Assembly: GCA_016124675.1 (NCBI GenBank)
Contig: WGNG01000015.1
Coordinates: forward strand, 62,001 to 126,000
Source: Alphaproteobacteria bacterium
GTDB lineage: Bacteria > Pseudomonadota > Alphaproteobacteria > Caulobacterales > Maricaulaceae
DNA length: 64,000 bases
Direction: 5' to 3'
The position numbers and the translations under genes are program-made. Shown piece after piece: positions 34,418-36,025 of the stretch. Under the pieces are notes generated by a model. It was given only the letters and a program-made list of their open reading frames with translations, was not told the origin of the DNA and ran no database searches. Within the stretch, counting starts at the first letter, position 1; every line of letters starts with the position of its first letter.

Positions 34418-36025
34418 TTACAAATGAGCGCGAATACCTGGATTTGTTGCAATATAGGCTTTATTTCCCTCCGACCAACGCTTTGGATTGGCGGCCTCTA
34501 TAGACGCAAAATAACCGGCGATAATCTTTGCAGCTCTGTCGATTGTTAGGTCGTCAGTTGCCGCCGAAAGTGGCCCGGGCACTCTGGTGCTCTTGAGTGC
34601 TCGGCCAATTAGTTGAGCTTGGGTAAAGCCTTTCACCACTTCTGATACGGTGAGGTTTTGGGTTGGCTCTGGTGCGACGCCTTCTACTTTGAACCGCCGG
34701 AACAGCGGACTCGTTTTATCCCGATCTAGCTTGCGGACAACTGCGGAAGCGAGCGCCGAAACGGCGGTTTTCGGATCATCATCTCCGAGTCGTAGGTCGG
34801 CGAGCAGGCTAACCAACAAACTTTTAGGTACGCTCTTCTGTTTGCTATTAATGGCGATGAAAAGATTTGCTTCGTTTTCGGCTTGCATTTCTTCAAAAGC
34901 CACAACGATAAGATTGTCGTCTAGTTTATTATCTGAAAGGCCGGAATACCCAAAAAGCCGATGCTGACCGTCGATGATCCAAGCTGATCGATAAACGGAC
35001 GGAAGCTCTATCCATCCAAAAGTAACATTCAGATTGTCGTTCTCTTTATTAGATATTGGACTAAATCGAGGCTTTTTGGAAAAGTTGATAAGTATGTTCG
35101 TGGGAAAATATCCACCACCATTAATGAACTGACCAATTTGCTTTATTCGGCTTTTGCTTACCATTCTTTGATATGCGGGCCGCGCGTCAATTGGATTCAA
35201 TGCTTGGTGGTTGACATATGAGATTTTTAGAAGATCACGAGGCGTTGCGGTGAAGCTATAAAAGGTTTGGCTCCCCAACTTCCCTTTCATCGCGGGCAGC
35301 TTCTTTCCGGCGAGCCCTGGAACTTTCTGGTCACGAAGGAAATCACCAAGAATTTGATATTTTGCAGCTGGCCCCATGTGGCCAATAAAATTGGCAAAAT
35401 ATTGTAATTCATTTTCGGTGACGATTTGTATCGAGGCATCCTCTGCCCGCCTTACGTCTTCGTCTGACCAAATAATGTTTTCCGTTACGTATATCCATAT
35501 GATTTTTGGTTTCGGACGCTCGCCAAATCGGCGATATAATGATGAACGAATATAGGCCTGTAATGCCTGTGTCTCAAGCAAATCTTTTTGAAGTGTTCGA
35601 CGACCGCGTATCTTGCGTGATTTGCACTCAGCGATAATGACGGTTTCTGGATCCTCAGCATAAACATCAATTTGCTTGCTTCCGCGGCTGCCCGATTCGC
35701 GCTCAAACTCGATACAGAAATGTTGACCGTTCATAACGCCATAACCGAGATCAGCAAACAAAGCCCATACGCGGTCCTCCAGCCAGTCTGCATGGGACTT
35801 TGGGCGCCTTACCCTCGCCGATTTTTTGCTTTTGCGTGCAAGGGTCCAACCAGCGGCCTCTGATTGTGAAATATCTGCGAGATGCACCAATTTTTCGTCA
35901 AATGAGCGCTTTCTCAGGCGCATGGCCTTTTTTATTTCGGTGTCACTGGATAGGAGCGGTTCACCAAATTTCGCTGCATCGGTGTCTAACAGGCGTTTGA
36001 TCGGATCGTCTGTCATTTCGGTCAT
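34418..36025 (-). CDS. PD-(D/E)XK nuclease-DGQHR domain fusion (DndB/DptB-like C-terminal part)
   Basis: WLEDRVWALFADLGYG...KQIDVYAEDPETVIIAECKSRK nuclease-like core; WIIDGQHRLFGYSG (DGQHR codons at 34958-34972). Confidence 0.8.
   Translation of the reverse strand: MTEMTDDPIKRLLDTDAAKFGEPLLSSDTEIKKAMRLRKRSFDEKLVHLADISQSEAAGWTLARKSKKSARVRRPKSHADWLEDRVWALFADLGYGVMNGQHFCIEFERESGSRGSKQIDVYAEDPETVIIAECKSRKIRGRRTLQKDLLETQALQAYIRSSLYRRFGERPKPKIIWIYVTENIIWSDEDVRRAEDASIQIVTENELQYFANFIGHMGPAAKYQILGDFLRDQKVPGLAGKKLPAMKGKLGSQTFYSFTATPRDLLKISYVNHQALNPIDARPAYQRMVSKSRIKQIGQFINGGGYFPTNILINFSKKPRFSPISNKENDNLNVTFGWIELPSVYRSAWIIDGQHRLFGYSGLSDNKLDDNLIVVAFEEMQAENEANLFIAINSKQKSVPKSLLVSLLADLRLGDDDPKTAVSALASAVVRKLDRDKTSPLFRRFKVEGVAPEPTQNLTVSEVVKGFTQAQLIGRALKSTRVPGPLSAATDDLTIDRAAKIIAGYFASIEAANPKRWSEGNKAYIATNPGIRAHL

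Follow-up and report, generated by a model that had tools for sequence, protein, structure and literature searches.

What could a protein do that joins a nuclease domain directly to a DGQHR domain, and does its gene in fact end where the open reading frame ends? The question is raised by a locus in the window, i.e. the whole stretch of 64,000 nucleotides of an alphaproteobacterial genome that was analysed. The original prediction had read this locus as a 535-aa chain in which a PD-(D/E)XK nuclease is fused to a DGQHR module of the DndB type, with the nuclease as a potential effector acting outside classical phosphorothioation. The features that we assigned at the locus are listed in Table 1.

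Table 1. Features of the locus, in window positions
Feature	Position	Strand	Evidence or remark
A+T-rich acquired island, 45% GC in the 66% GC window	32745..36025	.	beside uvrB (36109-38391)
PD-(D/E)XK + DGQHR ORF, 535 aa	34418..36025	-	first two-thirds of a 783-codon gene
PD-(D/E)XK domain, Card1/Can2/Cdn1-like, residues 78-209	35399..35794	-	Pfam Card1_endonuc, Foldseek, motif conservation
ECK catalytic motif codons, residues 133-135	35621..35629	-	motif conservation
DGQHR (DndB/ParB-like) domain, residues 245-533	34427..35293	-	TIGR03187 8.5e-46; PF14072 1.1e-14
DGQHR motif, residues 352-356	34958..34972	-	invariant in 80/80 sequences
In-frame TAA, splitting off the HEPN part	34418..34420	-	sense codon in relatives, at a variable position
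Frame continuation, 247 codons, all-helical, with Swt1-like HEPN	33674..34417	-	54% identity to intact homologue here; AF2 pLDDT 93.6
Rx4H motif RKIAAH (R214, H219 of the 247-aa part)	33761..33778	-	invariant in 80/80
Dam-family N6-adenine DNA methyltransferase, 309 aa	32745..33674	-	1-base overlap between its start and the HEPN frame end

Three domains and one interrupted frame

The ATG-initiated frame of 535 codons was found on the minus strand with the coordinates and both motifs as described earlier. Its DGQHR module is the most conserved part of the long protein, as we call the full product of this gene and of its relatives, and is recognized by TIGR03187 with 156.9 bits (cut-off 58.85) and by the Pfam DndB model PF14072, over residues 243-405, with 54.7 bits (cut-off 29.1). 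The narrower identities that we tried were all rejected: DndB itself (TIGR03233, 20 bits against an equivalog cut-off of 328), DpdB (NF041060, 74.2 bits against 300) and the GmrSD/SspE/DndI class, the window protein having no match to DUF262 (PF03235) or to DUF1524/HNH. A weak GmrSD_N match was seen in only 6 of 68 relatives. GmrS and DGQHR domains have been linked to each other (PMC4619093), and by analogy with its DUF262 cousins the DGQHR module may possess NTPase activity. The proposed independence from phosphorothioation agrees with our searches of the window's own genome, which found neither a match to DndC nor any DndB-family protein besides this one; the search for DndE carried no information, its controls having stayed silent.

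The presence of a nuclease domain was suggested by the Card1_endonuc model of Pfam, which scores 24.4 bits (E 2.3e-5), just under its cut-off of 26.4. We predicted the structure of the nuclease-DGQHR frame with AlphaFold2 (AF2) from an alignment of 68 sequences, namely the window and 67 homologues with two rows from plasmid records left out, and obtained a model with pLDDT 90.2 and pTM 0.86. The best Foldseek matches of this model in the PDB are Cdn1, VC1899, Card1, AF1548 and Can2, all nucleases of the PD-(D/E)XK type, with probabilities of 0.98-1.00. The candidate active site consists of E83...D120...E133-C-K135, and among 80 sequences these residues are kept in 74 (E), 79 (D), 75 (E), 80 (C) and 61 (K) cases. 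Since the motif is conserved across the 80 sequences, it is not a chance match; the direct fusion, the nuclease fold and the plausible active site of the original prediction have all held up. The catalytic lysine is retained in the window protein and is absent in 19 of the 80 sequences, which comprise all 11 of the 11 aligned radical-SAM-linked proteins and eight others, so DNA cleavage is not universal in the family. Judged from the sequences, most of the members linked to a methyltransferase, the window included, probably have an active DNase.

The 535-aa chain had been taken for a complete protein, and this part of the original prediction has to be revised. The 535 codons, the TAA and 247 further codons lie in the same frame and together make up a 783-codon gene interrupted by one TAA; in intact relatives the product is one chain of ~770-800 aa, which can be aligned over its full length. 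The continuation, the HEPN-like domain within the lost part and the Dam gene that overlaps the end of the frame had all been missed. The AF2 model of the 247-aa part is confident as well as all-helical, and Foldseek against the PDB returned no solved HEPN structure for it. The HEPN_Swt1 profile has no match in the window segment itself; it matches 23 of 68 members (E up to 1) with a best value of 1.8e-6, and exceeds the Pfam cut-off of 27.5 in two relatives only (27.8 and 28.6). Neither the window proteins nor profiles gave informative matches in sequence searches of the PDB, the one exception being a local similarity, below significance, between the Rx4H region and HepS. On the grounds of motif and profile we classify the C-terminal domain as HEPN-like. 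Among the 80 sequences the Rx4H motif and the DGQHR motif are never lost, unlike the lysine of the PD-(D/E)XK site, which makes the HEPN domain the invariant catalytic candidate of the family, with a predicted activity of the RNase type.

The operon in the window is probably impaired. It could be that its long-protein gene is a dead remnant in which the TAA is a genuine nonsense mutation, and that the locus is of interest only through its intact relatives; we put the chance of this at somewhat less than even. A stop at the matching place is absent from all 79 aligned relatives, the terminal branch of the window copy is long (0.86 on the tree, against about 0.1-0.4 in the nearest sister group), and no near copy of the operon was found in the genomes of 40 relatives. 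Against this stands the absence of any further lesion beyond the TAA across the 783 + 309 codons of the operon, and the retention of nearly all highly conserved positions: 64 of 65 in the nuclease-DGQHR part, 8 of 10 in the HEPN part and 56 of 58 in Dam. A TTG codon immediately 3' of the TAA might also allow reinitiation, though no clear ribosome-binding site is visible near it, and the stop codon is known from one assembly only, so that it might be a sequencing error. Because almost all conserved residues are retained, the TAA is a recent lesion, a sequencing error or a working split into two separately made proteins. The dead-remnant reading is a statement about this one copy and does not conflict with the explanation that we prefer for the family below.

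Interrupted copies are seen elsewhere too. Homologues at five loci (L025, L035, L065, L071 and L083) apparently carry frameshifts or stops, at differing positions, that divide them, and given these it seems that loss of the long protein is frequent, some of the splits possibly being assembly errors. The homologue of genome G295 (L009:8115-10322) has no ATG, GTG or TTG start where one would be expected for the N-terminal ~60 residues, which points to a start codon of an unusual kind or to damage at the N terminus.

The adenine methyltransferase partner

The long protein is encoded in nearly constant association with an adenine methyltransferase, as our survey of its relatives indicates. A scan of genome contigs with the window protein as a single sequence gave no match, while the alignment-based scan found relatives; tblastn of the window protein against a phage collection gave no match either. 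The motif-based scan, with one genome per species, recovered 228 relatives, in which the fusion pointed out originally forms part of three-domain proteins of ~780 aa, and the best 80 of the 228 were examined. These 80 loci come from other genomes and include both bacteria and archaea. Among the relatives with an intact operon are those of Alphaproteobacterium Mf 1.05b.01 and Devosia sp. Root685. Within the class, a full-length member is encoded in only 3 of 385 genomes, and we count this rarity against the explanation that we prefer.

In the window, the partner is a clear Dam-family enzyme (TIGR00571 with 230 bits over a cut-off of 114.85; PF02086 1.2e-48). Of the best 80 relatives, 58 have a Dam-family gene directly adjacent on the same strand, typically overlapping the long-protein gene by a few to tens of bases; the relatives were chosen by similarity to a Dam-linked query, and hence this and the following proportions describe this part of the family and not the whole DGQHR superfamily. 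In six of the 80 loci the neighbour is an MT-A70 adenine methyltransferase, which is unrelated to the Dam family (PF05063 3.6e-30 for the one tested, the other five called by clear sequence similarity), and in one it is another methyltransferase of the D12 class. At three loci a gene of the Dam family or one resembling another methyltransferase is found no more than about 1.2 kb away, as judged by inspection of the sequence; three lie at contig ends, and at the other nine a radical SAM gene and a GHKL ATPase stand in place of any methyltransferase. The idea of assaying the nuclease on unmethylated versus Dam-methylated DNA was therefore well aimed, a Dam-family gene being the near-constant operon partner.

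We rejected a chance adjacency of Dam on three kinds of evidence. In a control set of other DGQHR proteins, Dam was adjacent in 0 of 27 loci. The distance matrices of the long protein and of Dam are correlated with r 0.64, against a maximum of 0.21 in 2000 permutations. In the maximum-likelihood tree the window falls inside the Dam-linked clade, and at least four changes are required to account for the MT-A70 label and at least two for that of radical SAM. That Dam has repeatedly given way to an unrelated enzyme with the same chemistry argues strongly that what the partner contributes is adenine methylation. Promoter and terminator scans returned no more sites than shuffled sequence.

A related arrangement was observed at L012:7129-9213, where the gene of a 384-aa DGQHR protein and that of a separate restriction endonuclease of the Mrr type (Mrr_cat 1.7e-32) are immediate neighbours, i.e. 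a two-gene version of the DGQHR-nuclease pairing.

The uvrB-side island and the radical-SAM-linked branch

The operon lies in a defence hotspot on the side of uvrB. The flanks of the island have a GC content of 67-69%, against 45% within it. We call the site a hotspot because three genomes of the same genus (L136, L137 and L138) hold different A+T-rich genes of defence type at the matching place downstream of uvrB, encoding a ThsA-like SIR2 protein (2.6e-14), a HEC-01-like ATPase pair (6.8e-37) and a GHKL-like ATPase with a small partner, and because the long-protein system itself occurs beside uvrB at the distant alphaproteobacterial loci L030, L036 and probably L035.

Two other observations were made elsewhere in the window. 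At 25233-27232 a C5-cytosine methyltransferase gene overlaps the gene of a NotI-family restriction endonuclease (PF12183 1.1e-40), a partly A+T-rich pair that constitutes a NotI-like type II R-M (restriction-modification) system. Near it, at 22107-23102 on the minus strand, a second C5-cytosine methyltransferase is encoded (PF00145 1.4e-69; PADLOC DruM-like 2.1e-152).

A radical SAM gene also accompanies the relatives on two plasmids and on one viral contig. Radical-SAM-linked relatives occur, for example, in Marivibrio halodurans, in Sphingomonas solaris and on plasmid pNL1 of N. aromaticivorans. At the radical-SAM loci (L006, L007, L077, L078, L081-L084, L086, L090, L092 and L099) the CxxxCxxC motif is intact in 12 of 12 and a GHKL ATPase is nearly always present, sometimes together with a PIN_8-like protein, a second GHKL ATPase and a short DGQHR protein; the plasmids and two Sphingomonas genomes combine the radical SAM gene with a PIN-like protein and the latter two. 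The motif filter detected a methyltransferase-like ORF in 0 of the 12 radical-SAM loci, versus 40 of 52 loci in a mostly Dam-linked set. We speculate, as an unlikely though suggestive reading, that the long protein is an exchangeable reader plus effector, made up of DGQHR and HEPN with the DNase as an option, which is able to team up with Dam, with MT-A70 or with radical SAM/GHKL ATPases, in which case the radical-SAM-linked branch would be a defence system with an undescribed DNA mark made by the radical SAM enzyme and a HEPN effector. Of the whole family, this branch is the part with the best chance of holding something categorically new.

A proposed function and its alternatives

With moderate confidence, we propose that the long DNase-DGQHR-HEPN protein and the N6-adenine methyltransferase form a two-gene, R-M-like anti-phage operon. 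The first gene would combine in one protein a PD-(D/E)XK DNase, a DGQHR module of the ParB/Srx type that is NTPase-like, and a HEPN domain of the RNase type, and the second, usually of the Dam family, would mark the host DNA. The DGQHR module would bind DNA, and its NTP turnover would tell methylated self from an unmethylated invader; on unmethylated DNA it would license the DNase. The HEPN domain could cut RNA and so bring about dormancy or a suicide response, and it is possibly the main effector. The computational evidence directly shows the three-domain build, the linkage to an adenine methyltransferase with its exchanges, the parallel divergence of both genes and the hotspot position; NTP hydrolysis, 6mA sensing, cleavage of DNA and RNA and a role against phages are inferred.

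This proposal transfers the logic of DndI, in which a DGQQR ATPase stimulated by the DNA mark of the host releases self DNA and so spares it from the fused nuclease (PMC11662687), with N6-methyladenine as the presumed mark, PD-(D/E)XK where DndI has HNH, and the HEPN RNase serving as a second or main effector. In both DndI and SspE a DGQQR ATPase/GTPase that reads a DNA modification is coupled to a nuclease (PMC11662687). DndI, SspE and GmrSD resemble the long protein in that their nuclease is fused to a module of the ParB/Srx type that bears a DGQ(Q/H)R motif, and DndI and SspE are likewise paired with a set of DNA-modification enzymes, the ATPase of DndI reading the mark and protecting self DNA. 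They differ in that their module is DUF262, whereas here it is DGQHR/PF14072, and their nuclease is a C-terminal HNH, whereas here it is an N-terminal PD-(D/E)XK with a HEPN domain added; the mark, if N6-methyladenine as we presume, would be made by one gene here. DndI is the best mechanistic analogue. The nucleases Card1, Can2 and Cdn1 share the PD-(D/E)XK fold and motif but sense cyclic oligoadenylate through CARF, while the long protein has no CARF and would use DGQHR as its regulator.

The most serious alternative keeps the same parts and shifts the weight among them. The HEPN domain could be the sole essential effector, the PD-(D/E)XK domain being mainly DNA-binding or ancillary and the methyltransferase or radical SAM cassette serving as an antidote-like self-marking, so that the system would resemble PrrC or a methylation-controlled toxin and not a restriction enzyme. 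The invariance of Rx4H together with the loss of the PD-(D/E)XK lysine, in the radical-SAM-linked proteins and in eight other sequences, speaks for it, as does the PrrC-like two-layer model of HEPN with R-M outlined in a 2013 HEPN survey (PMC3710099). The lysine is kept, however, in 61 of 80 sequences, the window included, which implies that most lineages still select for it, and we give this alternative a minor but real chance. The emphasis on the nuclease as sole effector in the original prediction is doubtful for the same reason, the lysine being absent in some members and Rx4H in none.

Could the long protein simply be the restriction endonuclease for the Dam site, as in the logic of MboI/DpnII, with a structural HEPN domain? 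An ordinary type II system would account for the Dam partner, the nuclease fold and the near-universal methyltransferase linkage, and type II R-M systems with Dam-family methyltransferases do have the modification gene in a tight operon with the nuclease gene. But the nuclease is nearest to Card1/Can2/Cdn1, with MboI and Sau3AI not among the Foldseek matches listed, and DGQHR rather than the nuclease is the best conserved part of what is a modular, NTPase-like protein carrying HEPN. The long protein is moreover retained where MT-A70, an unrelated enzyme, or a radical SAM cassette takes the place of Dam, and we consider this reading improbable. Still less credible, in our judgement very improbable, is a DndB-like regulator whose one role is to control how far the neighbouring modification enzyme is expressed or active, the part reported for DndB in phosphorothioation, with no defence cleavage. 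DndB has been described as acting negatively on transcription (PMC10853773; PMC4507180), and like DpdB it has a DGQHR domain homologous to that of the long protein; a modification-regulated regulator without cleavage would equally give the methyltransferase linkage, a point that we count against our preferred explanation. Yet the long protein falls far below the equivalog cut-offs of both, has two additional domains of nuclease type whose active-site motifs are conserved, is encoded in a defence hotspot and comes from a genome where DndC was not found.

Elements of the proposed two-gene operon have been noted before. Table 1 of the 2013 survey includes Saro_3948, in which a Swt1-like HEPN is joined to ParB, and another HEPN family, MAE_28990, in an operon with ParB and a DNA methylase (PMC3710099), so that ParB-HEPN fusions and neighbourhoods of HEPN, ParB and methylase genes were already on record; the accessible text of that survey describes no PD-(D/E)XK-DGQHR-HEPN protein with Dam or MT-A70 and no radical SAM branch. 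We found no account of the three-domain system with Dam/MT-A70, or of the radical SAM branch, in the openly accessible literature, outside which most subscription journals and all preprints lie, and PADLOC 2.0 does not label members of the long-protein family as a system. The combination of DNase-DGQHR-HEPN and methyltransferase looks like an undescribed anti-virus system of the R-M type.

If the proposal is right, the operon would be a compact and widely distributed two-gene immune system that places a DNA-level and an RNA-level effector on one epigenetic reader. It would extend the principle of DndI and SspE, in which a ParB-type NTPase reads a DNA mark, from phosphorothioate to N6-methyladenine, and the natural exchange of Dam, MT-A70 and radical SAM makes the mark read by the DGQHR domain directly testable.
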